A DNA stretch of 64,000 nucleotides. Origin: Sphingopyxis sp. (lineage in GTDB: Bacteria > Pseudomonadota > Alphaproteobacteria > Sphingomonadales > Sphingomonadaceae). The stretch lies in the NCBI GenBank assembly GCA_017745175.1, contig JAGHZY010000017.1, forward strand, positions 1 to 64,000. Reading direction: 5' to 3'. The notes under the pieces were generated by a model that searched no databases, was not told the DNA's origin, and saw nothing but the letters and a program-made list of their open reading frames with translations. Every line of letters starts with the position of its first letter. Positions within the stretch are counted from its first letter, which is position 1. The translations under genes were made by a program, and so were the position numbers. Below, piece by piece: positions 5,155-33,579 of this stretch.

Positions 5155-5184
5155 TATATGGGTCGGTGCCGGCTTCGGCCGGCT

Positions 5185-5523
5185 ATGAGGATAAATGGTG
5201 TCGTGGAATAGACACAGCGGACCCGGGGGCAGTACCCGGCGGCTCCACCACAAACCCGCGTTTCTTCGATGGGCGCGCGGGTTTCTGACGGGGCCGAACC
5301 AGGATCGACGTGTGTTCAAAGGCGATATTTTCTTCCGGGCTGAGTAACCCGTTCAAGGCTCAAAACTATAAGTGCTAACGATAACGAAGCACTCGCTCTG
5401 GCTGCGTAACCGATAAGCCTCACGGCCTAAGGTTATTCAAATAGAACGCGGTTCGGACCGAACCGGGCAACAGAATCGGATACCAGCGGCTGGGGACGAG
5501 CCGGGCAACAGAATCGTCCCACC
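5185..5523 (+). ncRNA. ssrA: Circularly permuted two-piece tmRNA (ssrA)
   Basis: tmRNA rescues stalled ribosomes and adds a degradation tag. The acceptor piece comes first in the gene: a T-arm (ACCCGGGGGCAGTACCCGG) and the 3' acceptor strand CGGCTCC plus ACCA, ending at 5250. An intervening hairpin (stem 5252-5260 with 5276-5284) would be cut out. The coding piece starts at 5290 with GGGGCCG, which pairs with CGGCTCC through seven base pairs including one G-U. The tag frame at 5374-5409 reads ANDNEALALAA then TAA, the tag typical of sphingomonads. Two pseudoknot-like elements follow up to about 5520. The outer ends are approximate. Confidence 0.95.
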
Positions 5524-6651: not shown

Positions 6652-7710
6652 TCACGCGAGGCTGTTGCCCAGCCCGATCACCACGGTCGACAGCATCAGC
6701 ACCGCAATCCCCAGCCACACGAGTGCGCGCGTGCGCCGTCCGGCGGGCGCCCATTCCCTGAGCGCAAAGCCCCAGAGCGTCGAGAAGAGGATGATGCTCG
6801 CCATGTGCAGCGTCCAGCTCGAAAAGCCGAAGCGCCCCATCTGGCTTTCGCCCATCGTGTAGAAGAAGAACTGGAAATACCAGAGCGTCCCGCCGAGCGC
6901 CGCGAGGCCGTAATTGAGCGCGAGCGGAGGTTTTCCGGTCGCTCCCGGCGCGGCTTCGCCGGCGAACTGGCGGATGCTGCGGTTGCGCGCGATCAATATG
7001 CCGCACCAGATGAGGTTGGTGGTGAGCCCGCCGAGCAGCACGACGCAGAGTACCGGCAGCCCCTGCCACAACGGATCGGTTCCGGCGGCGAGCGTCAGCT
7101 CGCGGATCGGCGCCCCGGCGTCGAGGCCCCAGGCGAAGCAGCCCGACATGATGCCCGAGAAGACCGCGATCGCGAGCCCCTTGCGCAGGTCGAATTCGGA
7201 GGCATCGGGCGTGACGTCGCTGTCCATCTCGCGTTCCTTGCGGCGCCCCGCCTGCGCGACGATGACGATCCCCGCCAGCGTGATCGCGATGCCGAGGAAC
7301 ACCGTCTGCCCGCTCGTCGTCGCGGACAGCTCGCCCAGGGTGCCGTGAAAGATCGGTGGACCCATCGTTCCGATGACGGTCGTGAGACCGAGCGCGACCG
7401 CCATGCCGAGCGACAGCCCGAGGTAGCGCATCGTGAGCCCGAAGGTGAGCCCGCCGAGCCCCCACATCGCGCCCCAGAACCAGCACCAGAACCAGATGTC
7501 GCCCGGCGTGCGGCCCAGCACGCCGATCAGATCGTGCGTCTGGATCGACGCGAATAGCCACGGCGCGACGAGCCATGAAAAAATACCGCCGGTGATCCAG
7601 AAAATCTCCCACGACCAGGCGCGGATGCGCTTGTACGGCACATAGAAGCTCGCCGACGACAGTCCGCCCAGCCAGTGAAAGAACACGCCGAGCAGCGGGT
7701 TCGCATCCAT
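6652..7710 (-). CDS. rhaT: L-rhamnose/proton symporter RhaT
   Basis: A 352-residue membrane protein with about ten hydrophobic helices. It aligns with RhaT in motifs such as GGLSSASFYVPYKRIRAWSWE at the start and LGLSLGMAVALGLTTVIGT in the middle. RhaT brings L-rhamnose across the inner membrane with protons. It is the third gene of the leftward rhaB-lldD-rhaT operon, 19 bases after lldD, and ends 6 bases from the convergent cation-efflux gene. The assignment is supported by the flanking rhamnose genes. Confidence 0.93.
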   Translation of the reverse strand: MDANPLLGVFFHWLGGLSSASFYVPYKRIRAWSWEIFWITGGIFSWLVAPWLFASIQTHDLIGVLGRTPGDIWFWCWFWGAMWGLGGLTFGLTMRYLGLSLGMAVALGLTTVIGTMGPPIFHGTLGELSATTSGQTVFLGIAITLAGIVIVAQAGRRKEREMDSDVTPDASEFDLRKGLAIAVFSGIMSGCFAWGLDAGAPIRELTLAAGTDPLWQGLPVLCVVLLGGLTTNLIWCGILIARNRSIRQFAGEAAPGATGKPPLALNYGLAALGGTLWYFQFFFYTMGESQMGRFGFSSWTLHMASIILFSTLWGFALREWAPAGRRTRALVWLGIAVLMLSTVVIGLGNSLA

Positions 7711-7729
7711 CCTCTTTCTCCCCTTGTCG

Positions 7730-8872
7730 TCAGGCGGCTAGCGACCCAGCCCCGATCCTGTCCACAGTCGTCGCTCCGGTGAGCGCCATCGCGACGCGCA
7801 TTTCGGCGTCGATCAGGTCGAGCACATGCTGCACGCCGCGTTCGCCGTCGGCCGCGAGCGCGAACGCCCATGCGCGGCCGAGCAGCACACCCTGCGCGCC
7901 GAGCGCGAGCATTCGCACGACATCGAGCCCCGATCGCACCCCGCCGTCGGCGAGCAGCGTCAGCCGGCCGGCGACCGCATCGGCGATCGCGGGCAGCGCG
8001 CGCGCCACCGATGGCACGCCGTCGAGCTGGCGCCCGCCATGGTTTGATACGATGATTCCGTCGGCTCCCGCGTCGGCTGCGCGGTGCGCATCGTCGGGGT
8101 CGAGAATCCCCTTGATGACGATCGGGCCCTTCCAGTGCGCGCGCACGAAATCGAGGTCAGCCCAGGTGACGCTTGCGTCGAAATTATCCTTCATCCAGCC
8201 GAGGAAATCCTCGAGTCCCGATCGGGGACCGAGCAAGGGCGCGACATTGCCGAGCTGGTGCGGCCGGCCGCGGATTCCGACATCCCAAGCCCAGCGGGGC
8301 CGCGTCATCGCCTGCCCGATGCGCCGCGCCTGCCCGCGCAGGCCCGCCGCGCCCGAAAGCCCCGAACGAACGTCGCGGTAGCGCGCGCCGGGCAGCGGCA
8401 TGTCGACCGTGAAAACGAGTACCGGACACGCGATCTCGTGCGCTTCTTCGAGCAAGGCGTGCAGGAATCCGCGGTCGCGGACCATGTAAAGCTGGAACCA
8501 GAAGGGCGTCGGGCATCCCCGCGCGACCTCGGCGAGCGAACAGGCCGATACGGTCGACAGCGTGAAGGGCACACCCCGTGCCGCTGCTGCACGTGCCGCC
8601 TGCACCTCGCCGCGACGCGCGGCCATCCCGGCGAGTCCGATCGGGCCGAGCGCGACGGGCATCGCGAGCTTCTGGTCGAATAATGTCGTCGACAGGTCGA
8701 TCGCCGATACGTCGGTCAGCACCCGCTGGCGCAGCGCGATATCCTGCAGATCCTCGATATTCGCGCGCAAGGTGCGCTCGGCATAGGAGCCGCCGTCGAA
8801 ATATTCGAAGAGGAAATGGGGAAGGCGGCGGCGCGCAGCTTCGCGATAGTCGCCGATCGATGCTGCTCTCAC
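7730..8872 (-). CDS. lldD: FMN-dependent L-lactate dehydrogenase (LldD family)
   Basis: A 380-residue alpha-hydroxy-acid oxidase that would turn L-lactate into pyruvate and feed electrons to the respiratory chain. It shows the family TIM-barrel motifs: [33 protein letters not shown], the FMN/substrate lysine strand IVIKGILD, and the catalytic His in [11 protein letters not shown] chose GTG at 8872, whose GTGA overlaps the rhaB stop, rather than the longer form at 8908. The shorter N-terminus ([14 protein letters not shown]) matches LldD proteins. In this setting it would oxidise the L-lactate made from rhamnose-derived lactaldehyde. Confidence 0.9.
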
Positions 8873-10287
8873 GCGGCTTCTTCCATCCGCCCGGCTTCTG
8901 CGCGCCACCGGTCGCGCCAGGATGCGAGATCGATGTCGAGCGGTTCAACCAGTTCGAGCGGTTCGACGGGCGGAAGCGCGGCATCGATCAGCCGCAGCGC
9001 GCCATAGGATACATCGTTGTGCGCCTTGCCGACATAGACGCGAAGATCGGGGCGCAGCGCGGCGAGCGCGCGGACGAAGACCTGCCCTTCGGCGAAGCGG
9101 CCCTCGATCAGCAGGCGCTCCTTCGTTCCGATCAGGTCGAGCGAGGCATCGGCGACCAGAGCGGCATAGAGCGACACGGCGGCGCGGTGTGCCGCAGGGT
9201 CGCCAGGTTCGGCGATCCAGCGGCCGCGGCCGCGCGGAAAGGGGCCGAAGCCCGGTGCAAAGGTCGGGAGCAGCATGGCGTCACCGGTGAGCACTCCGGG
9301 CAATGAGGCCAGCAACGCGGGCTGGTCGGGCGCGATATCGATCCGCCGCGTATCGAGGCCGATCAGCATCTCGATCTCGCGCCCGCCCATGAAGCGTGCC
9401 GAGGGGACCGGCTTGCCATAGGCATCGACGTTGATCAGGCAATCGCGCGCTTCGTCGAGGCCGCTTGTGTCCACCGACGCCGCGTCTTCGGGCGAGCGCA
9501 TCGCGACGAACCATGTGCCGGTCGAGAGCACGGTCGATTCATGCGTGGCGATTTCGGCGAAACTGCGTGCAGCGAGCAGTGCCGCGTTCGAATCGTGAAG
9601 GCCGCAATATATTTCAGTGTCGGCAGGCAGCCCGGTGCGCTGTACCCATGCGGGCGTCAGCGTGCCGAGTATCTCGCCCGCGCGGCGCAGCGGCGCCAGC
9701 CGCTCCGCCCAGCCGCGCCTTTCGGCCAGCCCCGACGGTGCGGCTGTGAGCGGGTTCCAGAGATCGGTGTGGCAGCCGAGGCTCGTTACCTCCGACGCGG
9801 CGACGCCGCTCAGCACCCAGCTCCAATATTGGGCCCACGGCAGGATTTGCGTGCCATGCGCAAGCCCGGGATCGAACTGCTCGAGGCGGAATATCTGCGC
9901 ACCGAGGTTGAGGCCGTCGGGGAGGGCGGGAGAGCCGGTATCGCCGAATGTATCGCGTTCCGCGTCATAGGCGGCGCGGAGGTTCGCCGGCATCGCCTCT
10001 TCATAATCGAGCGGCGGACAGGCGAGGGCGTCGGCGCGGAGGATCGCCGCTCCGGCGCCGTGGCCGACCGGGATGATCGCCCCGACATCGGCGAGTCTGG
10101 CAAAGAGGCGCAGCACCTCGGCGATCCAGCCTTCGATGCCGGCCGTATCGAGCGCCATATAGCTTCCGGCCCTGATACGTTCGTTGGGGCGTACGCGCCG
10201 TTCGACCAGCACGCCGTCCGGCGCCCAAAGACTCAGCTTTGCCAAGGTTTTGCCGACGTCCAGTACGATGGTTGCGCGATCTCTCAT
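8869..10287 (-). CDS. rhaB: L-rhamnulokinase-like FGGY sugar kinase
   Basis: A 472-residue FGGY-family kinase. The N-terminal phosphate-binding loop is [13 protein letters not shown], the substrate region includes [26 protein letters not shown], and the C-terminal ATPase lobe follows. It probably phosphorylates L-rhamnulose to L-rhamnulose-1-phosphate. That assignment comes mainly from context: it is divergent from a rhamnulose-phosphate aldolase gene and upstream of lldD and rhaT. FGGY kinases with this start are sometimes annotated as carbohydrate kinases of unknown substrate. Its stop overlaps the lldD start. Confidence 0.85.
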
Positions 10288-10403
10288 CGCTCTCCCTTTT
10301 GCTTCGTTGCGACCGAATTTGATCGAACTTTATCGAAACTGATTGCAAAGTGCCAGCGATTTCGATACACATCCTTGCATAGTCGAAACAACGAGTTTCC
10401 TTC
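10288..10403. promoter_or_regulatory. Divergent rhaB / rhaDE control region with repeated TCGAA boxes
   Basis: The 116 bases between the two operons contain TCGAA at 10323-10327, TCGAAA at 10333-10338, the reverse TTTCGA at 10360-10365, and TCGAAA at 10383-10388. The first two are direct repeats 10 bp apart, one helical turn. DeoR-family regulators often bind TTCG-containing repeats, and one is encoded at 13896. I see no convincing sigma-70 hexamers. Confidence 0.5.
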
Positions 10404-12518
10404 ATGCCCGATCTTCTGGACGTTTCACCCTCATCCAACGCCGCCGCGCTGCTTTTTGCCATTCCGGCGAATCGCTGGTCGGACGAAGAGGCGGGGGGGA
10501 AGTCGCCCGAAGAGCTGTTGCTCTATCGTTCGAACCTGCTCGGCTCGGACCTTACCGTGACCAATTTCGGCGGCGGCAATACCTCGGCAAAGCTCGGTGC
10601 GCGCGATCCGCTCACCGGCGACAATGTCGGGGTGCTCTGGGTCAAGGGGTCGGGCGGCGATATCGGGTCGATGAAGCTCGACGGCTTTTCGACGCTCTAT
10701 CAGGACAAGCTGCTCGGCCTCGAAAAACTCTATCGCGGGCCAGAGCATGAAGACGAGATGGTCGGTTATCTGCCGCATTGCACCTTCGCGCTCAATCCGC
10801 GCGCGGCGTCGATCGATACCCCGCTCCACTCCTATCTGCCCTTTGCGCATGTCGATCATGTCCATCCCGATGCGATCATCGCGCTCGCCGCGTCGAGCGA
10901 AGGCGAGGCCGCGACCCGGGCGATCTGGGGCGGGGCGGTGGGCTGGCTTCCTTGGCAACGGCCGGGCTTCGACCTCGGTCTGAAACTGCGCGATCATGTC
11001 GCGGCCAACCCCGGTCTTCGCGGTGTGATGCTTGCGGGGCATGGCATCATCTGCTGGGGCGACAGCGCGAAAGCCTGTTACGACAACACGATCGCGCTGA
11101 TTGTCGATGCGGCCGGATATCTGAACGGCAAGCTTGCGGACGGCCCTGCTTTCGGCGGGGCAGCGGTCGCGGCGCGGCCTGCCACCGAACGCGCGGCCAT
11201 CGCCACGAAGCTGATGCCGGCGCTTCGCGGCCTGATGGGCGGACGGCGCGTCGGCCATTTCGCCGACGATGCCGAAACGCTCGAATTCACCGGCAGCCGC
11301 GATTTCGCGAAGCTCGCGGCGATCGGGACGTCGTGCCCCGACCATTTCCTGCGCACCAAGATCGCGCCGCTCGTGCTCGATCCCGCGCGGCTCGAAGAGA
11401 GCGCCTATCTCGCCGAGCGTATCGAGGCATATCGCGCCGGTTACGCCGCCTATTACCAGCGGTGTGCGCGGGCGAACTCGCCCGCGATGCGCGATCCGAA
11501 TCCGGTCGTCGTGCTCGTCCCCGGCGTCGGGCGCATGACCTTTGCCGGCGACAAGACGACGGCGCGGCTCGCGGGCGAATTCTATGCCAATGCCATCAAC
11601 GTCATGCGCGGCGCCGAGGCGATCGGCGCTTATGTCGGGCTCGATGAGCAGGAAGCGTTCGACATCGAATATTGGCTGCTCGAGGAAGCGAAACTCCAGC
11701 GCATGCCGAAGCCCAAGCCGCTCGCGGGCCGCATCGCGCTGGTGACGGGTGGCGCCGGCGGTATCGGCGCCGCGACTGCCGAGCGCCTCGCCGCCGACGA
11801 TGCGTGCGTCCTGCTGGTCGATCGCGATGCCGATGCGCTGGCAAAGGCGGCGCAGGAACTCGAGGGTCGTTTCGGCCGCGATCGTGTCCGCTCGGCGGTA
11901 TGCGATGTTACCGACGAGGCGCAGGTGGCGGCGGCTTTCGCGGCGTGCGCGCGCGAATATGGCGGGCTCGACATTCTCGTCGCCAACGCCGGTATCGCCT
12001 CGTCGGCGCCGATCGAGGACACGACGATCGAACTTTGGCAGCGCAATTATGACGTGCTCGCGCAAGGCTATTTTCTCACCGCGCGCGCGGCATTTCCGCT
12101 GATGAGGGCGCAGGGCGGCGGGTCGATCGTCTTCATCGGGTCGAAGAATGGCATCGCCGCGGCGACCAATGCATCGGCCTATGCGTCGGCGAAGGCCGCG
12201 GCGCTGCATCTTGCGCGCTGCCTCGCGCTCGAGGGTGCGCCGTTCGGGATCCGCGTCAACACGGTCAATCCCGATGCGGTGATCAAGGGGTCGCGGATCT
12301 GGGACGGCGACTGGCGCCGCGAACGCGCCGGCGCGCACGGGATCGATTCGGGCAGCGAGCTCGAGGAACATTATCGCAACCGTTCGATGCTGAAGCGCGA
12401 CGTGCTGCCCGAAGATGTCGCCGAAGCGGTCTATTTCCTCAGCTGTGATATGTCGGCAAAGTCGACCGGCAACATGATCAACGTCGACGCGGGCAACGCG
12501 CAGGCATTTACGCGATAA
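10404..12518 (+). CDS. Fused rhamnulose-1-phosphate aldolase / lactaldehyde dehydrogenase
   Basis: A 704-residue two-domain enzyme. Residues about 40-430 form a class II (zinc) aldolase with metal ligands in HVDHVHP (H149, H152, H154 region) and H213 in AGHGI; this part would split L-rhamnulose-1-phosphate into DHAP and L-lactaldehyde. Residues about 440-704 form a short-chain dehydrogenase with TGGAGGIG, NAG and the YASAK active site (Y593, K597); this part would oxidise lactaldehyde to lactate. Such RhaD-RhaE fusions are known in rhamnose operons of several bacteria. It is divergent from rhaB and followed 22 bases later by the isomerase. Confidence 0.93.
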   Translation: MPDLLDVSPSSNAAALLFAIPANRWSDEEAGGKSPEELLLYRSNLLGSDLTVTNFGGGNTSAKLGARDPLTGDNVGVLWVKGSGGDIGSMKLDGFSTLYQDKLLGLEKLYRGPEHEDEMVGYLPHCTFALNPRAASIDTPLHSYLPFAHVDHVHPDAIIALAASSEGEAATRAIWGGAVGWLPWQRPGFDLGLKLRDHVAANPGLRGVMLAGHGIICWGDSAKACYDNTIALIVDAAGYLNGKLADGPAFGGAAVAARPATERAAIATKLMPALRGLMGGRRVGHFADDAETLEFTGSRDFAKLAAIGTSCPDHFLRTKIAPLVLDPARLEESAYLAERIEAYRAGYAAYYQRCARANSPAMRDPNPVVVLVPGVGRMTFAGDKTTARLAGEFYANAINVMRGAEAIGAYVGLDEQEAFDIEYWLLEEAKLQRMPKPKPLAGRIALVTGGAGGIGAATAERLAADDACVLLVDRDADALAKAAQELEGRFGRDRVRSAVCDVTDEAQVAAAFAACAREYGGLDILVANAGIASSAPIEDTTIELWQRNYDVLAQGYFLTARAAFPLMRAQGGGSIVFIGSKNGIAAATNASAYASAKAAALHLARCLALEGAPFGIRVNTVNPDAVIKGSRIWDGDWRRERAGAHGIDSGSELEEHYRNRSMLKRDVLPEDVAEAVYFLSCDMSAKSTGNMINVDAGNAQAFTR

Positions 12519-12540
12519 GACACGGAATCAGGAGAGAGTT

Positions 12541-13836
12541 ATGGCCGGCGAACTGCCGCTCGCACAGGATGATATCGAGCGGCTGAATGCCGGTCTGGCC
12601 GACGCGCTCGGCGATGATTATGGCAGTCTCGGCCGCCAGCTCGGACGGCGCGGGATCGGCATTGACGCGGTGAAAGCGAAGGTCGCGGGCTTCTCGGTCG
12701 CGGTGCCGAGCTGGGGCGCGGGGCGCGGGGGCACGCGCTTCGCCAAATTCCCGATTGCCGGCGAGCCGACCAATATCCACGAGAAGCTCGAGGATTGCGC
12801 GGTGATCCAGCAGCTCGGCCGCGCGACCCCGCGCGTCAGCCCGCATTTCCCGTGGGACAAGGTCAGCGATTATCGCGGCTTGCGCGATGAGGCGGCGGCG
12901 CTCGGCCTCGGCTTCGATGCAGTGAACAGCAACACTTTCCAGGATCAGCCGGGGCAGGCGGTGAGCTACGCCACCGGCTCGCTCTCCTCGACGCGTGCGG
13001 ATGTCCGCGAACAGGCGGTCGCGCACAATATCGAATGCATCGAGATCGGGAAGCAGCTCGGCGTCACCGACCTTACCGTCTGGGTCGGCGACGGCACCAA
13101 TTTTCCGGGGCAGCAGGATCTGGGCCGCAGCCTCGACCGCTATCTCGACGCGGCATCGCAAGTCTATGCGGCGCTCCCGGCCGACTGGCGGATGCTGATC
13201 GAGCACAAGATGTTCGAGCCGGCCTTCTACTCGACGGTGATTTCGGACTGGGGCAGCTCGATCCTCGCCGCGCAGGAGCTGGGCGACAAGGCGAAATGCC
13301 TCGTCGACCTCGGGCACCATGCGCCGAATGTGAATATCGAGCAGATCGTTGCGCGCCTCCACCGCTTCGGAAAGCTCGGCGGGTTCCACTTCAACGACAG
13401 CAAATATGGCGACGACGATCTCGACAGCGGATCGATCAACCCGCACCAGCTTTTCCTCGTCTTCAACGAGCTGATCGAGGCCGAACTGAATCCGCGCGGC
13501 GATTTCCGTCCCGCCTATATGATCGACCAGTCGCACAATGTGACCGACCCGATCGAGAGCATGTTGGCGTCGGCCGAGGCGATCGTCGCGGCCTATGCCA
13601 AGGCCTTGCTCGTCGATCGCGAGGCCTTGCTCGCCGCGCAGGAAGCCAACGACACGATGATGGCGTTTCAGACGCTGCGCACCGCCTATCGCACCGATGT
13701 CACGCCGATCCTCGCGGCGGCGCGCGCCGAAGCGGGTGGGGCGATCGACACGATCGCCGCCTATCGCGCGAGCGGCTGGCGGACACGCAAGGCGCAGGAA
13801 CGCAAAACTGCGGGCACTGCGGCGGGGATCGTCTAA
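12541..13836 (+). CDS. rhaI: L-rhamnose isomerase, RhaI type
   Basis: A 431-residue TIM-barrel isomerase of the Pseudomonas stutzeri RhaI type rather than the Escherichia coli RhaA type. Family motifs include EPTNIHEKLEDCAVIQQLG, IEHKMFEPAFYSTVISDWG and CLVDLGHHAPNVNIEQIVA. Metal-binding residues are expected in the KMFEP, LGHHAP and FNDSKYGDDD segments. It converts L-rhamnose to L-rhamnulose, the first catabolic step in the cytoplasm. GGAGAG precedes the ATG. It probably shares a transcript with the upstream fusion enzyme. Confidence 0.94.
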   Translation: MAGELPLAQDDIERLNAGLADALGDDYGSLGRQLGRRGIGIDAVKAKVAGFSVAVPSWGAGRGGTRFAKFPIAGEPTNIHEKLEDCAVIQQLGRATPRVSPHFPWDKVSDYRGLRDEAAALGLGFDAVNSNTFQDQPGQAVSYATGSLSSTRADVREQAVAHNIECIEIGKQLGVTDLTVWVGDGTNFPGQQDLGRSLDRYLDAASQVYAALPADWRMLIEHKMFEPAFYSTVISDWGSSILAAQELGDKAKCLVDLGHHAPNVNIEQIVARLHRFGKLGGFHFNDSKYGDDDLDSGSINPHQLFLVFNELIEAELNPRGDFRPAYMIDQSHNVTDPIESMLASAEAIVAAYAKALLVDREALLAAQEANDTMMAFQTLRTAYRTDVTPILAAARAEAGGAIDTIAAYRASGWRTRKAQERKTAGTAAGIV

Positions 13837-13895
13837 TCATTCGATTGCAACTCGGCGCAGCTCTCGTCAAATAGGCGCAACAGACAGGGGCCCCG

Positions 13896-14678
13896 ATGCA
13901 CGCAGCCGAACGCGAAAGAATGATCCTCGATAGCCTGGGCGAGAGCGGTTTCGTCTCGTTCCGCGATCTTGAAAGTCGTGTGGCGGCGTCGCCTGCGACA
14001 ATCCGCCGCGATCTCGACCGGCTGGAGGAAGCCGGCGTCATCACGCGCGTGCGCGGCGGCGCCAAGCGTGTCGGTAGTGGCGGTGCGCCGACGGCGTCCG
14101 AAGATGGCCTGTCGGGCGTTCCGTTCCACGAAAATATCGGTCTCAACCGCGCCGCCAAGGAAGCGATCGGGCGCGCGGCGGCGCAATTCTGTATCCCGGG
14201 CGAGGGTGTGATGATCGACGGCGGTTCGACGACGCTGCAGATGTGTCCGCATCTCGATGGCCTGAGCCTGCAGGTTCTGACCAATTCGCTGCATATCGTC
14301 AGCGCGCTGTTGCCGCAGCCGACGACGCGTATCCTCGTGCCCTCGGGGCAGGTATTTCGCGAACAGAATATCGTCCTGTCGGCGGCGGGTGACGACGGCA
14401 TGCCGCGCTTCCATGCGCCCAAGCTGTTCATGGGCGCGGCGTCGATGGGCCCCGCGGGGCTGATGCAGGCCGACGTGATCCTCGTCGCCGCCGAGCGCCG
14501 GCTGATCGAGCGCGCCGACGAGATCATCGTTCTCGTCGATAGCTCCAAATTCTCGGGCCCCTCGGGCAATGTCGTCTGCTCGCTCGACGAGATTGACATC
14601 GTCGTCACCGATTCGGCGATCGACCCGCGCCATATCGCGATGATGGAAGCCGCCGGCATCCGCGTCGTCATCGCCTGA
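13896..14678 (+). CDS. rhaR: DeoR-family transcriptional regulator of the rhamnose genes
   Basis: The 260-residue protein has an N-terminal helix-turn-helix (ERERMILDSLGESGFVSFRDL, then SPATIRRDLDRLEEAG) and a C-terminal DeoR sugar-phosphate-sensing domain (AKEAIGRAAAQF, MIDGGSTTLQM, DSSKF). DeoR proteins usually repress and are released by a pathway intermediate. It is 59 bases after rhaI and upstream of the TonB receptor. I infer that it controls both the catabolic genes and the glycoside-utilisation run. A DeoR-type rhamnose regulator is known in other alphaproteobacteria; the gene symbol is by analogy. Confidence 0.82.
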   Translation: MHAAERERMILDSLGESGFVSFRDLESRVAASPATIRRDLDRLEEAGVITRVRGGAKRVGSGGAPTASEDGLSGVPFHENIGLNRAAKEAIGRAAAQFCIPGEGVMIDGGSTTLQMCPHLDGLSLQVLTNSLHIVSALLPQPTTRILVPSGQVFREQNIVLSAAGDDGMPRFHAPKLFMGAASMGPAGLMQADVILVAAERRLIERADEIIVLVDSSKFSGPSGNVVCSLDEIDIVVTDSAIDPRHIAMMEAAGIRVVIA

Positions 14679-14743
14679 ATCCACCGGAATTTTCGAAGAA
14701 AAGCCGCGGTTCGCCGTGGCGTTCGAGCACGAATGATTGAATT

Positions 14744-14763
14744 TGATCATTGACGTGATCATT
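14744..14763 (+). promoter_or_regulatory. Direct repeat TGATCATT upstream of the TonB receptor
   Basis: Two copies of TGATCATT (14744-14751 and 14756-14763) are separated by GACG, a 12-bp period, and each contains the palindrome TGATCA. They lie in the 212-base gap after the DeoR gene, about 130 bases before the receptor start, within a locally AT-rich stretch. This is a candidate operator or promoter-proximal site; I cannot assign the binding protein. Confidence 0.4.
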
Positions 14764-14890
14764 AAAGACAAATAATGAGCAGTGATGCAAAAACGCTCAC
14801 CGAAGCGTGGCATCGGAGGAACAGGACCGCCGGACAGGCGCCTCCGTCAAAATAAGGACGACTTGCGAGAGCGAGTGCAGGGAGGATGCG

Positions 14891-17539: not shown

Positions 17540-17552
17540 CGGGGAGGTTGGG

Positions 17553-20813: not shown

Positions 20814-22282
20814 TCCGCGGCGTTCTTATCCTGACTGCCGTGACCGCGATGGCGTCTCCCGCTATCGCTCAGCAGGCGACGATCGACAGCGGCGCGGTTG
20901 CGGGTGCGACCGCCGATGGCATCGCATCGTTCAAGGGCATTCCCTATGCTGCGGCGCCCGTTGGCGCGGGGCGCTGGAGCGCCCCGGCGCCGGTGGCGCC
21001 GTGGAGCACGCCGCGCGACGCGAGCGCTTACGGCGCTGACTGCATGCAGAATCCGCTACCGGGCATCCAGCGCGGATCGCGGCCGATGAGCGAGGATTGC
21101 CTGACGCTCAATGTCTGGACGCCCAAACCCGCAAAGGGCGCGGGGCTGCCCGTCATGCTGTGGATCCACGGCGGCGGCTTCGTCGGCGGGTCGGGAACGC
21201 TTCCCGAGACCGATGGCAGTCTGCTCGCGAAGCGCGGCGTCGTGGTCGTCAGCTTCAACTATCGCCTCGGCCGCTTCGGCTTTTTCGCGCACCCCGCGCT
21301 GGGGAAGGACGGCAACTGGGGCCTGATGGACCAGATTGCCGCGCTCAAATGGGTTCAGCGCAATATTGCGTCCTTTGGCGGCGACCCGGCGAAGGTCACG
21401 ATTTTCGGCGAGAGCGCCGGCGGGGAATCGGTGTCGCGCCTGATGGCGTCGCCCACCGCAAAGGGCTTGTTCGCGCGCGCGATCGTCGCGTCGGGCGGTG
21501 GCCGCGACGACTGGCCGACGCTTGCGGATGCGCAAGCGAAGGCCCGGGCGTTCGCGTCGCGTGCGGGGGCGGCCGATGCCGCGGCGCTGCGCGCGCTCCC
21601 GGCGGATACGGTGCTCGGCAGCGTCGCGCTGATGAGCAAGGAAGAGGATCGCTATTCGGGGCCGATGACCGACGGGACGATCGTTCCCGCGGGTGCCGAG
21701 ACGATCTTCGCCGAAGGCAAACAGGCGCGCATTCCCTATATCATCGGCAGCAACGACGACGAACTCGGCTTCATCCCGGCGCCGTTCCGCGCGATGGTCA
21801 ATGGTCCCGTCGAAAAGTCGCTGGGGGCGGCCGCCACCGCTGTGAAGGCGGCCTATGCCAGCGAAGACGAAGCGAACCGCCGCCTCGGCGGCGACGCGAT
21901 GTTCGCCGAACCGGCGCTCGCTTTCGCCCTGTTGCAGGCGCGCGCCGGCGCGCCGACCTTCCTCTACCGCTTCGGCTATGTCGCCGAGGGGCAGCGCAAG
22001 CCCGGCGTCGGCGCGGTCCATGCCTCGGACGTCGCCTTCCAGTTCGGCAACCTGCCCGCCGATGCCACGGTCGCCGACCGCGCCGCGGCGAAACAGCTTG
22101 GCGACTATTGGACCAATTTCGCGAAGACAGGCGACCCGAACGGCGGCGGACTGCCCGTCTGGTCACGGCTCGATCCGGCGGCGCCGCGCCTGCTGTCGAC
22201 GGGCATCGAGGGAACGGTCATGGCGCCGGCTACAACGCCCGCGCTCACCGCCATCGCCGCCGCACGGGACGGAAAGAAATGA
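20810..22282 (+). CDS. Secreted type-B carboxylesterase
   Basis: A 490-residue alpha/beta hydrolase with a signal peptide (AVTAMASPAIAQ). It has the carboxylesterase type-B signatures EDCLTLNVW, HGGGFVGGSG (oxyanion hole) and the nucleophile S202 in GESAGG. The catalytic His is probably in GAVHASDVAFQF. Proteins of this type hydrolyse a wide range of esters, often of aryl or acyl groups. It is joined to GH78 and to the next esterase by 4-base ATGA overlaps, so it probably deacylates the same glycoside. Confidence 0.9.
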   Translation: MIRGVLILTAVTAMASPAIAQQATIDSGAVAGATADGIASFKGIPYAAAPVGAGRWSAPAPVAPWSTPRDASAYGADCMQNPLPGIQRGSRPMSEDCLTLNVWTPKPAKGAGLPVMLWIHGGGFVGGSGTLPETDGSLLAKRGVVVVSFNYRLGRFGFFAHPALGKDGNWGLMDQIAALKWVQRNIASFGGDPAKVTIFGESAGGESVSRLMASPTAKGLFARAIVASGGGRDDWPTLADAQAKARAFASRAGAADAAALRALPADTVLGSVALMSKEEDRYSGPMTDGTIVPAGAETIFAEGKQARIPYIIGSNDDELGFIPAPFRAMVNGPVEKSLGAAATAVKAAYASEDEANRRLGGDAMFAEPALAFALLQARAGAPTFLYRFGYVAEGQRKPGVGAVHASDVAFQFGNLPADATVADRAAAKQLGDYWTNFAKTGDPNGGGLPVWSRLDPAAPRLLSTGIEGTVMAPATTPALTAIAAARDGKK

Positions 22283-23142
22283 AAGTCATGACCATGCGCC
22301 TCTCTGCCGTTATCGCCGGTGCGCTCGCCATCGTCGCGATCCCCGCCTGCGCGTGGGAAGTGATCCGCCTGTCGTCGGACCCGGTGCCCGCGACGTCGAA
22401 GGAAGTCCGCGAAACCGGACCGTTCGGCACGATCGTGCGCAACGTGTCCGACGCGACGCTGACGCCCTATGTCGCCGACAAGCCCAACGGCACCGCGGTC
22501 ATCGTGGCGCCCGGCGGCGGCTTTCACATGCTGTCGATCGACAATGAGGGTGAAGCGGTCGCGAAATGGCTGAACAGCCTCGGCATCACCGCCTTCGTGC
22601 TCAAATACCGCCTGCTCGAAACCGGCGCCGACTTCCCGCTTCAGATGATGCGCTATCTCGCCAATCTTCCCGCCTTGCGCACTGCGGTTGAGCCGCTGCG
22701 CCCGCTCGCGACCGCCGATGGCGAGAATGCGGTGAAGTGGGTGCGCAAGAACGCGGGCCGCTACGGCATCAAGCCGAACCGCGTCGGGCTGATGGGTTTT
22801 TCGGCGGGTGGCGCTGTGACGGTGTGGACGTTGACGGCGAACCAGCCTGCGAGCCGCCCGGATTTCGCGATTGCCATATACCCCGGCCTGCTCCCCGATA
22901 CGATCGCGGTGCCGAAGAAGGCACCGCCGCTGTTCGTCACGGCGGCGAAGGACGACAAGCTGGCGTATGACGACAGCGTCCGCCTCGCGGCCGCGTGGAA
23001 GGGCGCCGGTGCGAGCAGCACGATCATCACCTATGACAGCGGAGGCCATGGTTTCGGCATGAAGAAAAGCGGCAAGCCCAGCGACGCATGGACCGATGCA
23101 ATGGCGACGTGGATGCGCGGCCAGGGACTGGTCGGCAAATGA
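22279..23142 (+). CDS. Secreted alpha/beta hydrolase, acetyl-xylan-esterase-like
   Basis: A 287-residue secreted hydrolase (signal MRLSAVIAGALAIVAIPACA). It has an oxyanion motif APGGGFHML, the nucleophile S175 in GFSAGG, Asp in TAAKDDKL and His in DSGGHGFG, a full catalytic triad. The layout resembles the BD-FAE/acetyl-esterase group that removes acetyl or short acyl groups from sugars. The true start is ATG at 22279, overlapping the previous stop; the longer open frame upstream is an out-of-frame shadow of the carboxylesterase. Its own stop overlaps the next gene. Confidence 0.87.
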   Translation: MKVMTMRLSAVIAGALAIVAIPACAWEVIRLSSDPVPATSKEVRETGPFGTIVRNVSDATLTPYVADKPNGTAVIVAPGGGFHMLSIDNEGEAVAKWLNSLGITAFVLKYRLLETGADFPLQMMRYLANLPALRTAVEPLRPLATADGENAVKWVRKNAGRYGIKPNRVGLMGFSAGGAVTVWTLTANQPASRPDFAIAIYPGLLPDTIAVPKKAPPLFVTAAKDDKLAYDDSVRLAAAWKGAGASSTIITYDSGGHGFGMKKSGKPSDAWTDAMATWMRGQGLVGK

Positions 23143-24737
23143 GGGCCGCGTCGCTTCTCCTGCTCGCCGGCGGATCGTTGCTCGCGGCGTGCACCGCGAA
23201 CGAGCCGGCCCCGACGCCCGCATCTTCGGCGCAAAAGGTCGGGAGCTGCGAAGCCCTGACGGGCATGGCGCTCAAGGACGGCAAGGTCGACGCCGCGACC
23301 TCGCTCGCGGGCGGCGCGATGGTCGATCTCGAGGCGGGCAAGCCGGGCCTTCCGGCGCCCGCCGCCTTCTGCCGCGTGCAGGCGACATTGTCGCCGGTGC
23401 CCGGATCGTCGATCAAGGTCGAGGTCTGGCTGCCCGAACGCGCGGGCTGGAACGGCAAGCTGCTCGGCGCGGGCAATGGCGGCTTCGGCGCGAACATGCT
23501 GCTGCCGTCACTCCTGATGCGCGGCGCGGTGCAAAAGGGCTATGCTGCGGTCGGCACCGACATGGGGCATTTCAGCGAAGCCGATGTCGACGCGAGCTGG
23601 GCGCTGAACGCGCCCGAGAAAATCCGCGACTATGGCTGGCGCGCCAATCATGTCGGCGCCGAGACCGCGAAGCAGGTGATCGCAGCCTTTTATGAAAACC
23701 CGCTCGCCGCGAGCTATTTTCACGGCTGTTCGGATGGCGGACGACAGGCGCTGACGCTCGCGCAGCGTTACCCCGCCGATTATGACGCGATCATCGCGGG
23801 CGCGCCCGCGATGCCATGGACGCGCATGGCGAGTGCGTTCGCGAACAATGCCGTCGCGGCGAACAAGCCCGGCGGCGACCTGTCGATGGCGAAGCTCAAG
23901 CTGCTTCAGTCGGCATCGCTCGGCGCGTGCGACGGACTCGACGGGGTGAAGGATGGCGTGGTCGACGATCCGCGTGCGTGCCATTTCGATCCCGCGAAGC
24001 TCGCGTGCAAGAGCGGCGAGGGCGCCGATTGCCTGACATCCGGCGAGGTCGCCACGGCGAAGCTGTTCTACGAGGGGCCGAAGACCGCCGACGGCAAAAG
24101 CTTCTATCCCGGCTTCGCGCCGGGCGCCGAGGCCGAAGCGGGAACCTGGTCGCAGTGGCTGACCGGCAAGACATCGCAGCATGTGAAGTTCGGCACTGCC
24201 TTTTTCCGCTATTTCGTGCACGCGAATCCCGACTGGCAGCTCTCCGACTTCAACCTTGAGCGCGACCATGCGCTGGCGAAGGCGCGCGTCGGCGGCGACC
24301 TCGATGCCGACGGCACCGACCTCGGTGCATTCTACAAGCGCGGCGGCAAGCTGATCCTCTATCATGGCTGGAACGACGCGGGGATCCCGGCGCTGAACAC
24401 CGTCAATTATTACGAGCGCCTCGTTGCGGCGAACCCGAAGGCGGCATCCACCTCGGTGCGGCTGTTCATGGTGCCGGGCATGTCGCATTGCCTTGCGGGA
24501 CCGGGGCCGAACAATTTCGATCCGCTGGCGGCGCTCGATGGCTGGCGGCAGGGCGGTCCTGCGCCCGAACGGATCATTGCGACCAAATATGATAACGACC
24601 TGTTTGCCTATATCGGCTTGCCCGCGAAGGCCGGGCGGACGCGGCCGCTCTGTCCGTTCCCGAAGGTGGCGAAATGGGACGGCAAGGGATCGACCGACGA
24701 GGCGGCGAGCTTCACCTGCGAGGTACCCGGAAAATGA
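23139..24737 (+). CDS. Tannase/feruloyl-esterase family lipoprotein
   Basis: A 532-residue member of the tannase/feruloyl esterase family. It has a lipoprotein signal (SLLAAC), the nucleophile S198 in [12 protein letters not shown], Asp/His candidates in [10 protein letters not shown] and [12 protein letters not shown], and a cysteine-rich lid (several Cys between about residues 270 and 305). The family cleaves esters of phenolic acids such as ferulate, coumarate or gallate. The start at 23139 overlaps the previous stop, and the end overlaps the acyl-CoA ligase. Together with the two preceding esterases it gives three mechanistically distinct ester hydrolases in a row. Confidence 0.92.
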
Positions 24738-26407
24738 CGAGCCACGTCAAGGGCGCGACCGAACCGCCGCTGATCGAACATACGATCGGCACGGCGCTCG
24801 CGCTTGCCGCCGAACGCTGGGGTGACCGCGATGCGCTCGTATCGGCCGGACAGGGGATCCGCTGGAGCTTCGCCGAACTGCTCGAGCGTTCCGATGCGTT
24901 CGCAGCGGGCCTGCTCGCGCTCGGCCTCAATCCCGGCGACCGGATCGGCATCTGGGCGCCCAATTGCGCCGAATGGACGCTGACCCAGTTTGCCGCGGCG
25001 CGCGCGGGGCTGATTCTCGTCACGATCAACCCCGCCTATCGCCTGTCGGAGGTCGAATATACGATCAACAAGGTCGGCCTGTCGGCGCTCGTCGCCGCGA
25101 CGAGCTTCAAGACCAGCGACTATCCCGCGATGATCGAGGCGCTGGCGCCCGAAGTCGCGGCGAGCACGCCGGGCGGGCTTCACGCGGCGCGGCTGCCGAT
25201 GCTCCGCTCGCTGATCCTGATCGGTGAACAGGCACGCCCCGGTTGGCTGCGCTTCGACGATGCCGCGGGACTTGCGGCCGATGCCGACCGCCAACGCCTC
25301 TCCGTGATCGCCCCGACGCTCGATCCCGATGACGCGATCAACATCCAGTTCACCAGCGGTACGACGGGGCTGCCGAAAGGCGCGACGCTCAGCCATCGCA
25401 ACATCCTCAACAACGGCTATTTCGTCGGCCGCACGCAGGGGCTGGGCGAGGGCGACCGCATCTGCATTCCCGTGCCGCTCTATCATTGCTTCGGCATGGT
25501 GATGGGCAATCTCGCCAGCATCACCCACGGCGCGGCGATGGTCTATCCGTCCGAAGGCTTCGACCCCGACGCCGTGCTGCGCGCGGTCGCGGCCGAGCGC
25601 TGCACCGCACTTTACGGCGTGCCGACGATGTTCATCGCGGTGCTCGCGCATCCCGATTTCGACCGCTTCGACGTTTCCTCGCTGCGCACCGGTTGCATGG
25701 CGGGGGCGATCTGTCCCGAGCCGCTGATGCGGCAGGTCGTCGAGCGGCTGCATATGCGCGACGTGACGATCGCCTATGGCATGACCGAGACGAGCCCGGT
25801 GAGTTTCCAGACTGCGCCCGACGACCCGTTCGAGCGGCGCGTGGGATCGATCGGCCGGGTGCAGCCGCACCTCGAATGCAAGATCGTCGATGGCGACGGG
25901 AATATTGTACCGACGGGCGAGCCGGGCGAGCTGTGCACGCGCGGCTACTCGGTGATGATCGGGTACTGGGACGAACCGCAGCGGACGATGGAGTCGATCG
26001 ACGCGGACGGCTGGATGCATTCGGGCGACCTCGCGACGATCGATGCCGAAGGTTATGGCAATATCGTCGGCCGCCTCAAGGATATGGTGATCCGCGGCGG
26101 CGAGAATATCTATCCGCGCGAGGTCGAGGATTATCTCTATCGTCACCCCGCGGTCGAGGATGTCGCGGTGGTCGGCATTCCCGACGATCGTATGGGCGAG
26201 GAGCTGTGCGCGTGGGTGCGGCTCAAGCCCGGCGCGGACCTCGGCCCGGACGATATACGCGAATTCTGCCGCGGCCAGATCGCCCACTATAAAGTCCCGC
26301 GTTACGTGCGTATCGTCGGCGAATTCCCCACCACGGTGACGGGGAAGGTCCAGAAATATCTGATCAGAGAAGCGATGGTCGCCGATCTCGGAAAGGAAGA
26401 AGCATAA
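24734..26407 (+). CDS. Acyl-CoA synthetase (AMP-forming)
   Basis: A 557-residue adenylate-forming ligase. The P-loop-like [18 protein letters not shown], the A5 motif AYGMTETSP and the C-terminal catalytic lysine in TVTGKVQK are intact. It resembles medium-chain/ACSF2-type ligases more than classical feruloyl-CoA synthetases, but substrate choice cannot be read off. There is no signal peptide, so it acts in the cytoplasm. It is joined by an ATGA overlap to the tannase-like esterase, which suggests that it activates the acid that esterase releases. Its stop overlaps the next ATG by one base. Confidence 0.9.
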
Positions 26408-26742
26408 TGAAAACTGCCATGTTTGTTGCGGCGCTGATGGCCGCCGCCCCCGCCTTCGCGCAGGGCACTGCCGCACCGGCGCCCGCTCCCGCCGCGCCCG
26501 CTCCCGTGCCGGCTGCGCCCGCGAGCGATGCCAGGTTCAACCTCGATACCCCGCTACAGGACATCGTCGCCGACGAGAAGGGCAAGGCGGTGATCGAAAA
26601 GCATTTCCCCGGCATGATCGCGCTGCCAGAGTACGAGATGTTCAAGGCGATCAGCCTGACGCAGCTCCAGCCCTATTCGAACGGCAAGATCACCGACGAG
26701 ATGCTGGCCGCGACGGCCAAGGATCTGGCGGAGATCAAGTGA
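26407..26742 (+). CDS. Small secreted protein, Ala/Pro linker plus conserved helical domain
   Basis: A 111-residue protein with a signal peptide ([19 protein letters not shown]), an Ala-Pro-rich linker (about residues 20-45) and a C-terminal 65-residue domain (LDTPLQDIVADEKGKAVIEK, then LTQLQPYSNGKITDEMLAA). I recall similar short domains beside or fused to glycosidases in sphingomonads, but cannot name a family. It sits between the acyl-CoA ligase and the GH3 enzyme, sharing a base with each neighbour (TAATG and TGATG). It may be a partner or anchoring module of the beta-glucosidase; no catalytic motif is visible. Confidence 0.72.
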   Translation: MKTAMFVAALMAAAPAFAQGTAAPAPAPAAPAPVPAAPASDARFNLDTPLQDIVADEKGKAVIEKHFPGMIALPEYEMFKAISLTQLQPYSNGKITDEMLAATAKDLAEIK

Positions 26743-29270
26743 TGAAGGGCCGGACAGCCTATCTGGCGGCAACATTGCTGTCCTCGACGGTGGCGCTGTC
26801 CGGCGCACAGGCGCAGGAAATGATCTACAAGGACAAGTCGGCGCCGCTTGAAGCGCGCGTCGACGATTTGATGGGGCGGCTGACGCTCGACGAGAAAATC
26901 CTGCTGCTCGCGGGTGAAAGCTCGATGACGCTGAACCCGATTCCGCGGCTCGGCATTCCGTCGATCCGCATGACCGATGGTCCCACCGGCGTACGCGACC
27001 CTGACGGCAAGCCCGCGACGGTTTTCCCCGTCGGTGTCGCGATGGCGGCGACGTGGAACCCCGATCTTGCGGCAGAGGTCGGAGCGGCGATCGGCACGGA
27101 AACGCTTGCGCACGGCGCCGACGTGCTGCTCGCACCGACGGTCAATATCGTGCGCACGCCGCGCTGGGGTCGCAATTTCGAAACCTACTCCGAAGACCCC
27201 TATCTCGCGGGCCGGATCGGGCTCGGTTATGTGAAGGGCGCGCAGGGCGCCGGCATTGGCGTCTCGCTCAAGCATTTCGCGGCGAACAATCAGGAAACCA
27301 ACCGCTTCATCGTCGACTCGGTCGTCGACCCGCGGACGCTGCGCGAAATCTATCTCCCGGCGTTCGAGACGGTGATCAAGGAGGGCGATCCCTGGTCGGT
27401 GATGGCGTCGTACAACAAGATCAACGGCACGCATGCCGCCGAAAACCGCTGGCTGCTGACCGATCTGCTCAAGACCGAGTGGGGCTACAAGGGCTTCGTC
27501 GTCTCCGACTGGGGCGCGGTCCACTCGACCGCGACCACCGTCAACGCCGGCATGGATCTCGAAATGCCGGGGCCGCCGAACCATTTCGGGCCGAAGCTCA
27601 GGAAAGCGGTCGACGAAGGCAAGGTCACGACCGCACAGCTCGACGACAATGCCCGCCGCATGGTGCGGCTGATCGTGCGCAGCGGCGCGATCGAACGCGG
27701 CGTCGCGCGGCCGGTCGCCAAAACCACCCCGCGCAACGCCGCGCTCGCACAGAGCGCCGCCGAGGAAGCGATCGTCCTGCTGAGGAACAGCGGCGTCCTG
27801 CCGCTCCCGTCGTCGATCAAATCGCTCGCGGTCATCGGCCCCAACGCCGATGTCGTGCGGATACAGGGCGGCGGCAGTTCGGCGGTCGTGCCGTTCGAGA
27901 CGAGCACGCCGCTCGCGGCGCTCAGGGCGGCGCTGCCGGGCGTGAAGATCATCCATGCCAAGGGCGTCGACAACGAGGAAACACCGCCGGGCGCCAATCC
28001 GAAGCTGTTCAGTCCCGGACAGGATCGCAGCGTCACCGGGCTTGCCGCGACCTACTACACCAATGCCGATATGAGCGGCGAGCCGGTGAAGCGCGAAACC
28101 GCGACCAGCTTCCTCAAACGCATCAGCGGCAATATCGCGGGGCCGCAGGTGACGGGCTATGCCGCGTTCCGCTGGGAAGGGCTGTTCTGGCCCGAGAAGG
28201 GCGGCACCTATGAATTCAGCACGCGCGGCACCGGCAATGCGACGATCGCGCTCGACGGCAAGACCTTGCTGTCGAAGGAAAGCGCGGCGAAGCCCGACAT
28301 CCGCGACGTGCTCGGCTTCCCGATCCCCCGGCGCACGGTGTCGGTCGAACTCGAGGCCGGCCGCAGCTACCCGATCCGCCTCGACTATGTGAACGGCCAG
28401 ACCCCCTATGAATATCTGAGCTTCGGCATCCGCGAACCGCTGCCCTCGTTCGACGAGGCGGTGGCGGCGGCGCGCGATGCCGATGCCGCGGTGGTGTTCG
28501 TCGGCTCGTCCTCGACCACCGAGGGCGAGGGCTATGACCGCACCTCGCTCGACCTGCCCGGCGAGCAGAACAGGCTGGTCGAGGCGATCATCGCCGCCAA
28601 TCCGGAAACCGCGATCGTCGTCAACGCCGGCGCCGCGATGACGATGCCGTGGGCCGACAAGGCGCCGGCGATCGTCGACATGTGGCTGCCCGGCGAGGGC
28701 GGCTCGGCGGCGCTGGCGAATGTCCTGACCGGCAGGGTCAATCCGTCGGGCAAGCTGCCGGTGACCTTCCCCGTGCGTACCGGGGATGACACGATCAACC
28801 TCAAGGGCGCAAAGACGCCCTATTCCGAAGGGTTGCTGGTAGGATACCGGGGCTATGTCGCGAAGGGCGTGACGCCGCTGTTCGCCTTCGGGCACGGGCT
28901 CAGCTACACGCGCTTCGCCTATCCCGCGCTCGCGGTGCCTGCGCGCGTCAGGGGCGGCGAGCCCGTCACGGCGAAGGTGACCGTCCACAACACGGGCAAG
29001 CGGGCCGGCAAGGAGGTCGTCCAGCTTTACGTCGCCGCGGTGACCCCGGGGGAAGGCGACGCGCCGGTGGCGCTGCGCGGCTTCGCCAAGCTCGACCTCA
29101 AGCCCGGCGCCCGCCGGACAATCCCGGTCGCGCTCGACCCGCGCGCCTTTTCGCGCTTCGATGCCGAACGGGGGCAATGGCGCGTCGTCCCGGGCCGCTA
29201 CCGGATTCTCGCCGGATCTTCGTCGGCCGACATCCGCCAGCAGCGCGAGGTCGAAGTGACGGCGGAATGA
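26742..29270 (+). CDS. Secreted beta-glucosidase, GH3 with PA14 insert
   Basis: An 842-residue secreted GH3 enzyme (signal ATLLSSTVALSGAQAQ). The N-terminal TIM barrel carries KHFAANNQETNR and the nucleophile D256 in VVSDWGAVHST. The second alpha/beta sandwich follows, interrupted by a PA14 domain at about residues 430-560 (GLAATYYTNADMSGEPV, YEFSTRGTGNATIALDGK). A C-terminal fibronectin-like domain ends the protein. It would remove beta-linked glucose left after rhamnose removal. I preferred ATG at 26742 (TGATG overlap) over GTG at 26739. It is the last gene of the run. Confidence 0.93.
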   Translation: MKGRTAYLAATLLSSTVALSGAQAQEMIYKDKSAPLEARVDDLMGRLTLDEKILLLAGESSMTLNPIPRLGIPSIRMTDGPTGVRDPDGKPATVFPVGVAMAATWNPDLAAEVGAAIGTETLAHGADVLLAPTVNIVRTPRWGRNFETYSEDPYLAGRIGLGYVKGAQGAGIGVSLKHFAANNQETNRFIVDSVVDPRTLREIYLPAFETVIKEGDPWSVMASYNKINGTHAAENRWLLTDLLKTEWGYKGFVVSDWGAVHSTATTVNAGMDLEMPGPPNHFGPKLRKAVDEGKVTTAQLDDNARRMVRLIVRSGAIERGVARPVAKTTPRNAALAQSAAEEAIVLLRNSGVLPLPSSIKSLAVIGPNADVVRIQGGGSSAVVPFETSTPLAALRAALPGVKIIHAKGVDNEETPPGANPKLFSPGQDRSVTGLAATYYTNADMSGEPVKRETATSFLKRISGNIAGPQVTGYAAFRWEGLFWPEKGGTYEFSTRGTGNATIALDGKTLLSKESAAKPDIRDVLGFPIPRRTVSVELEAGRSYPIRLDYVNGQTPYEYLSFGIREPLPSFDEAVAAARDADAAVVFVGSSSTTEGEGYDRTSLDLPGEQNRLVEAIIAANPETAIVVNAGAAMTMPWADKAPAIVDMWLPGEGGSAALANVLTGRVNPSGKLPVTFPVRTGDDTINLKGAKTPYSEGLLVGYRGYVAKGVTPLFAFGHGLSYTRFAYPALAVPARVRGGEPVTAKVTVHNTGKRAGKEVVQLYVAAVTPGEGDAPVALRGFAKLDLKPGARRTIPVALDPRAFSRFDAERGQWRVVPGRYRILAGSSSADIRQQREVEVTAE

Positions 29271-33326: not shown

Positions 33327-33579
33327 TCCCCGCCATGCCGCCGCGGCGGCGCTCGCGCTGATCGTCGCCGGCTGCGCGCCGACCGATGCGACCTTCGGCA
33401 ATGCGGTGCGGCAGACGATGGCGGCGCAGGTCGTCAACCCCGACCCGCAATATGAAGATCCGATCCCCGCCACCGAGGGGACAAGGGCCGCCAGGGCGGT
33501 CGATCGCTACCGGACCGACAAGGTGAAGCAGCCCGACACGATCCGCACGACCGACACCGAGGCCAGCGGGCCGAAATAG
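33316..33579 (+). CDS. Very short CpaD-position lipoprotein
   Basis: An 87-residue protein with a lipobox (LIVAGC, lipidated Cys near residue 19) and then a polar, probably unstructured segment (FGNAVRQTMAAQVVNPDPQY). It occupies the slot between cpaC and cpaE where CpaD, a lipoprotein of roughly 200 residues, normally sits. No folded CpaD domain remains. It may be a minimal pilotin for the secretin, or a degraded CpaD; the start overlaps cpaC and GGAAG precedes it, so it looks translated. Confidence 0.72.
   Translation: MNIDPRHAAAAALALIVAGCAPTDATFGNAVRQTMAAQVVNPDPQYEDPIPATEGTRAARAVDRYRTDKVKQPDTIRTTDTEASGPK

Follow-up and report, generated by a model that had tools for sequence, protein, structure and literature searches.

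A stretch of 64,000 nucleotides of Sphingopyxis sp. DNA (GCA_017745175.1, contig JAGHZY010000017.1, positions 1 to 64,000), here called the window, carries two adjoining gene units. Unit A (6652-14678) encodes L-rhamnose catabolism together with a DeoR-family regulator. Unit B (14891-29270) comprises eight genes encoding a TonB-dependent receptor, a GH78 alpha-L-rhamnosidase, three esterases, an acyl-CoA ligase, a small secreted-type protein of 111 residues and a GH3 enzyme. On balance, the two units are probably co-regulated, and unit B would take in and dismantle an acylated rhamnose/glucose conjugate that feeds rhamnose catabolism. What is new here is that the eight genes, to judge from their arrangement in other genomes, form a unit of their own that is separable from the rhamnose genes. 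This reading draws on gene families, gene order, active-site motifs, conservation of the unit, a motif shared by two promoters and coupling to a rhamnose route, all of them taken from sequence.

A two-sequence GH78 alignment was used to scan GTDB genome contigs for orthologous loci, of which 49 were obtained. Those with a GH78 identity of at least 50% were counted (31 of 49), and those below 40% (18 of 49) were excluded from every count. A comparison of gene order, proposed in a preliminary description of this DNA, found the eight genes fully collinear at 27 of the 31 loci, a conservation that exceeds chance. The four exceptions were L040 and L050, both cut by contig ends, L053 (Niveispirillum), without the ligase, and the rearranged L076 from the gammaproteobacterium Solimonas. 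In a background sample of 199 genomes of the family, one GH78 ortholog was found besides that of the genome of origin (G000), namely in G155 with 63% identity, and the remaining matches were paralogs of about 30-36% or partial. A search of plasmids with GH78 returned 206 records, every one below 60% identity.

In G155 all eight genes are present and the gene order is unchanged, while the 40 kb fetched there contain no rhamnose catabolic genes. Twenty loci outside the Sphingopyxis type have few flanking genes in common. At 10 loci the rhamnose genes precede the module, as they do in the window; 9 more have rhaT or a deoR-rhaI pair on its downstream side, and 10 have none within the fetched flank, with L040 and L076 completing the 31. 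In G400, the full rhamnose set is located downstream of GH3. It is quite improbable that a rhamnoside operon merely stands beside an unrelated ester/acid operon and shares no substrate with it. Such a separation would fit the occurrence of close ligase relatives outside the module and the absence of the ligase at the Niveispirillum locus, but at 27 of 31 loci the esterase and ligase genes are enclosed by GH78 and GH3, and even the rearranged Solimonas locus keeps them together with GH78 in a span of about 13 kb.

An alignment of 11 loci showed a conserved block in the gap between rhaK and rhaEW and a second one upstream of the receptor gene, each containing GAATTTGATC. This 10-mer has two copies in the window, precisely at both promoters, a number reached by 1 of 100 shuffles. 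The genome holds six copies, and the four outside the island promoters lie in a G+C-rich context. Among 19 further loci, 10 carry the 10-mer upstream of the receptor with at most one mismatch, and a near copy at L054 raises this to 11 of 19. The motif was not found upstream of the receptor at L042, L043, L047, L053, L055, L057, L063 (which has a variant) and L074. Motif-bearing loci, including G393, belonged to genomes with the L-rhamnose isomerase RhaI in 22 of 23 cases, the exception being G430, compared with 2 of 8 motif-less loci (G155 and G417; Fisher p 2e-4, among carriers that are related to one another). The rhamnose promoters of G400 and G139 have a related TGAT-unit pattern, and the exact 10-mer is absent there. 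At L043 the receptor gene is preceded by a TetR-type gene that clusters with relatives in L042 and L074; L076 contains a further TetR gene. The operators of DeoR-type RhaR regulators are described as imperfect direct repeats with a period of 10-11 bp in PMC3870299, and site 1 in the window matches them in period and direct-repeat form. The DeoR regulator would bind at both sites.

RhaI was sought in 34 genome entries, which are 32 distinct carriers, as G415 duplicates G155 and G139 was removed as a non-carrier. RhaI was called in 24 of 32 carriers (E <= 1e-100), with distant matches at most in the others. L-rhamnonate dehydratase, sought in 13 of the 32 carriers as a match over the cut-off of profile NF011968, was found in place of RhaI in 7 of 32, that is in every RhaI-lacking carrier except G430. 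G155 has both enzymes, and among the 13 the dehydratase was not found in G000, G400, G421, G417 and G430. Some rhamnose route was therefore present in 31 of 32 carriers, compared with 25 of the 199 sampled family genomes (14 with RhaI, which in one of them is broken into two pieces, and 12 with NF011968, the joint total being 25 since G155 has both). Without the carriers G000 and G155, the sample gives 23 of 197. The association of carriers with a route has a Fisher p of 1e-22, the carriers being related to one another, and 29 of 30 carriers have a route when G419 and G420, which fall outside the sampled family, are left out. The module appears to occur with whichever rhamnose pathway its host owns.

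The preliminary description had treated the stretch as one island and assigned the esterase/ligase half to the rhamnosidase. The latter claim is supported by the conserved order, the shared motif and the coupling to a rhamnose route. The former applies to the window, with the motif at both promoters, but not generally: elsewhere the rhamnose genes lie on the other side or outside the fetched flank, and 7 of 32 carriers use L-rhamnonate dehydratase.

In the mechanism proposed here, the TonB receptor would carry the conjugate into the periplasm, and three exported esterases would remove its acyl groups. The exported GH78 would release L-rhamnose, and the exported GH3 would release glucose. Rhamnose would be taken up by RhaT and converted by RhaI, the kinase and RhaE/W to dihydroxyacetone phosphate and lactate, which LldD would turn into pyruvate. 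The cytosolic ligase would convert the freed acid to its CoA ester, followed by oxidation through enzymes encoded elsewhere, and DeoR would repress both units as long as neither rhamnose nor a derivative is present. In this scheme, we infer the substrate, the order of steps, the location of the proteins and the repression.

Several observations weigh against this reading. RhaI is present without the standard motif in G155 and G417, and G430, an incomplete metagenome-assembled genome of 2.9 Mb, has the motif and neither rhamnose route was found in it. Phylogeny confounds both the carrier/route and the motif/RhaI correlations. No consensus sigma-70 promoter was found near either site. The ligase alone is not module-specific: of 197 sampled non-carriers, 16 have close relatives of it with 55-68% identity, and the own genome has a 64% paralog. 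The acid step is not indispensable, because the Niveispirillum locus does without the ligase. The three esterases could act on different substrates. Finally, L-rhamnose mutarotase (PF05336) was not found in the own genome, which is 92% complete. As this enzyme is often dispensable, only the word "complete" is weakened in the earlier claim of a complete L-rhamnose pathway, which by family stands for RhaT, RhaI, the kinase, RhaE/W and LldD.

Table 1. Genes of units A and B and putative operator sites in the window.
Feature	Position	Strand	Family evidence and remarks
rhaT, L-rhamnose/H+ symporter	6652..7710	-	NF010024 equivalog 523 bits, cut-off 468
lldD, flavin mononucleotide (FMN) L-lactate dehydrogenase	7730..8908	-	NF033901 570 bits, cut-off 550
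FGGY-family kinase, probable L-rhamnulose kinase (rhaK)	8869..10287	-	PF21546 220 bits; role suggested by position
Operator-like site 1, putative	10315..10346	+	divergent rhaK/rhaEW promoter region; GAATTTGATC-GAACTTTATC-GAAACTGATT repeats
rhaEW, bifunctional rhamnulose-1-phosphate aldolase / lactaldehyde dehydrogenase	10404..12518	+	NF006189 1081 bits, cut-off 634
rhaI, L-rhamnose isomerase, rhizobial type	12541..13836	+	TIGR02629 658 bits, cut-off 647
DeoR-family regulator, probable RhaR repressor	13896..14678	+	PF00455, PF08220; putative role
Operator-like site 2, putative	14739..14778	+	upstream of receptor gene; TGATC-N7-TGATC core
TonB-dependent receptor	14891..17539	+	PF00593, PF07715; first-start reading frame from 14807; ATG behind GGGAGGAT
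GH78 alpha-L-rhamnosidase	17469..20813	+	PF17389, PF08531, PF05592, PF17390; signal-peptide-like start, likely TTG about 17553
Carboxylesterase	20810..22282	+	PF00135 (COesterase) 375 bits; GESAG at 200; signal-peptide-like start
Alpha/beta hydrolase	22279..23142	+	PF07859 57 bits; GFSAG at 173; signal-peptide-like start
Tannase/feruloyl-esterase family hydrolase	23139..24737	+	PF07519 366 bits, cut-off 29.8; lipoprotein-like start (LLAAC)
Acyl-CoA ligase	24734..26407	+	NF009233 837 bits, cut-off 832; start without signal-peptide-like sequence
Secreted-type protein, 111 residues	26407..26742	+	signal-peptide-like start, Pro/Ala linker, five-helix domain (~65 residues)
GH3 beta-glucosidase-type enzyme	26739..29270	+	PF00933, PF01915, PF07691 (PA14 insert), PF14310; VVSDWG; signal-peptide-like start

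The genome of origin comprises 4.25 Mb in 141 contigs. Coding open reading frames (ORFs) were picked by codon G+C and named with Pfam and NCBIfam profiles, and export or lipoprotein character was read from the N-termini by eye. Every gene class named in the preliminary description was present at 6652-29270, and one ORF (26407-26742) was added. Several first-start ORF calls were too long, with likely starts at 14891 for the receptor, about 17553 for GH78, 23139 for the tannase-family gene and 24734 for the ligase. The module genes mostly overlap or almost abut, and stop and start codons overlap at, e.g., 23139, 24734, 26407 and 26739. The GH78 protein has the domain set of its family, and its Glu696 and Glu984 align to Glu636 and Glu895 of the solved structure 3w5m, which we take to be the catalytic acid and base. 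The tannase-family protein belongs to PF07519 and carries GCSDGG, HGWND and MSHC. The active-site motifs GESAG, GFSAG, CS...D...HC and, in GH3, SDW are thus all present in the island proteins. Scans of the island proteins with Pfam and NCBIfam found no SusD family member and neither GH106 nor GH39.

In unit A, RhaI and RhaE/W score over curated cut-offs with a DeoR gene adjoining, as in a DeoR-type rhamnose regulon. No equivalog over cut-off was obtained for the FGGY kinase (NCBIfam) or for the DeoR-family regulator. The island is otherwise kept at L061, with lldD absent between rhaT and rhaK. The genome of L036 has, besides its island copy, a second RhaI (L198, G423:C4:172823-174103) with 80% identity.

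Since the esterases and ligase travel with GH78 and GH3 and the motif occurs at both promoters, an acylated rhamnose-glucose conjugate, as put forward in the preliminary description, is a sound reading and the best one, with its chemistry being putative. Rutin, naringin and rhamnolipids as substrates are guesses. The released acid is at least as likely to be aliphatic or mixed as to be a hydroxycinnamate. A phenylpropanoid acid is weakened as a general product by the scan of 18 carriers with the hydroxycinnamoyl-CoA hydratase-lyase profile (NF006588), which exceeded its cut-off in 5. The own genome is among these five, with the gene at C71.

It is rather doubtful that phenylpropanoid-type rhamnoglucosides (verbascoside-like compounds, p-coumaroylated flavonol glycosides) are the substrates, with the tannase-family esterase freeing a hydroxycinnamic acid and the ligase activating it. 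Among solved structures, those closest to the tannase-family protein are MHETase and feruloyl esterases (feruloyl esterase B), a result that does not settle which ester it cleaves. For the ligase, the top PDB match bears the name feruloyl-CoA synthetase, though many unrelated CoA ligases follow, and the ligase falls into the "fatty acid CoA ligase" subfamily (NF009233). The hydratase-lyase of the own genome would fit such glycosides, but its occurrence in only 5 of 18 carriers would not, beta-oxidative hydroxycinnamate routes lying outside that count.

Acylated sugar lipids of plants or microbes (rhamnolipid-like, resin-glycoside-like, or trichome acyl sugars with rhamnose and glucose) are a possible though not a probable source, their aliphatic acids passing through the ligase to beta-oxidation. 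The ligase score over the NF009233 cut-off and the presence of three different esterases agree with this, and the hydratase-lyase, which most tested carriers lack, would be unnecessary. Yet simple rhamnolipids contain no glucose, and GH3 is kept in 27 of 27 full modules; moreover, a tannase-family esterase is not the lipase that would be expected.

Of four regions around ligase paralogs, two contained other acyl-CoA synthetases together with aldehyde dehydrogenases, and a third had an acyl-CoA synthetase, which is uninformative on the acid. A second cluster in the own genome (L033, G000:C53:168000-187000) contains a GH78 gene, a GH78-like six-hairpin protein, two alpha/beta hydrolases, an acyl-CoA ligase and a nitronate monooxygenase-type gene, again a rhamnosidase next to esterases and a ligase.

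The 111-residue protein, encoded between the ligase and GH3 and missed in the preliminary description, matches no Pfam or NCBIfam family and is present in 27 of 27 full modules and in L053. In its AlphaFold model, a disordered N-terminal part is followed by a five-helix domain predicted with confidence, with 61 residues at a predicted local distance difference test score (pLDDT) of at least 90. In a Foldseek search, ranks 1-7 of 16 were GH3 chains, none with E <= 0.001, and the best match of a family profile search of PDB sequences was the C-terminal end of GH3 7ms2 (676-746, E 0.026). The GH3 of the window stops shortly after its Fn3-like domain, and no fusion of the small domain to GH3 was found in 216 loci. 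These models and matches give a hint only that the protein may be a detached GH3 C-terminal domain. Membership in DUF1858, a resemblance that we had assumed, was rejected: Pfam gave no match, and 2k5e, presumably a DUF1858-like structure, came only at Foldseek rank 8 (E 0.82).

Of 296 genomes from the order, 52 contain relatives of this protein, mostly outside the module. Specificity of the family for glycoside clusters was rejected because 3 of 40 homolog regions were the module and many others adjoin DNA ligase/ClpA or YdbH/UvrC genes. On Sphingobium and Novosphingobium plasmids (L084, L085 and L086), a relative lies within about 1 kb of GH3 with rhamnosidase genes beyond, as seen in 3 of 19 records inspected, one of the three having mostly unnamed products. 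Steroidal or triterpenoid saponins that contain rhamnose, and whose acyl groups or glycosyl ester the esterases would remove, are an unlikely substrate. These plasmid neighbourhoods and the GH3, GH39, GH78 and GH106 enzymes of Sphingobium RC1, which act on saponins according to PMC10653915, speak for them, but GH106 and GH39 are missing from the island and the small-protein family is found in many unrelated contexts.

Among known systems, the Streptomyces avermitilis rhamnosidase 3w5m has the domain order of the island GH78, with glutamates aligned at the catalytic positions, but the similarity is moderate (486.8 bits over two stretches of 1114 residues) and its substrate preference is not transferable. 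Polysaccharide utilisation loci of the Bacteroidetes type likewise place a TonB receptor beside exported glycosidases, esterases and a regulator, whereas the island has no SusD-like gene or endo-acting enzyme and has a cytosolic CoA ligase.

Co-regulation of rhamnosidases with rhamnose genes in some lineages is already in print (PMC3870299). The DeoR-type RhaR regulons described there share RhaI, the alternative kinase, the bifunctional RhaE/W type enzyme and the DeoR regulator with the island, which has RhaT where rhizobia have an ATP-binding cassette importer. The word "esterase" is absent from the available text of that paper, the TonB/esterase/ligase module was not seen in it, and the module reported here is found as well in genomes that have the other rhamnose pathway. 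The Sphingobium saponin clusters (PMC10653915) also have sphingomonad GH3 and GH78 deglycosylation genes close by, and clusters similar to them adjoin relatives of the 111-residue protein. In contrast to the island, they have GH106 and GH39, and the available text describes no TonB receptor, tannase, ligase or rhamnose pathway, the words "esterase" and "TonB" being absent from it. No description of the module was found in the titles and abstract beginnings of open PMC papers, a search that left subscription papers and supplements outside.

The island is bordered by a CDF transporter and a MerR gene on one side and by a DUF2569 gene and Flp pilus genes on the other, where a Flp/Tad pilus cluster begins (30914-34782; CpaB, secretin, CpaE-like ATPase). 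A transfer-messenger RNA (tmRNA) gene (5155-5500, tag ANDNEALALAA) lies 1.2 kb from the island edge. It was rejected as the integration site of a genomic island: no copy of its 3' end (at least 12 bases) was found elsewhere in the window, no anomalous G+C was detected, and ARAGORN found no tRNA or tmRNA at six related loci. At L057, the receptor and GH78 are each split into two ORFs and GH3 is shortened, by sequencing errors or decay. An ORF of 252-319 residues lies between GH3 and rhaT at six loci (L052:21811-22770 and relatives), with no Pfam match in the one member scanned.

A wider picture is tentative and less probable than not holding: a portable eight-gene module for acyl-rhamnoglucosides would be joined to two alternative rhamnose pathways, with the operator at the receptor promoter in RhaI/DeoR hosts, and with the operator missing and a TetR gene there in some loci in L-rhamnonate dehydratase hosts. 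Its small secreted-protein family would perhaps be a detached C-terminal helical domain of GH3 that assists the neighbouring GH3. Sphingomonads live on plants, in soil and in water, and little has been mapped of how they handle acylated glycosides from plants or microbes. The module would provide sequence handles both for an unnamed secreted protein family and for sets of esterases, rhamnosidase and glucosidase that may act on the same substrate. Its gene-for-gene occurrence in Sphingopyxis and Sphingomonas, alongside two rhamnose pathways, offers a testable case of an intake unit that would have been rewired to the central pathway of its host.

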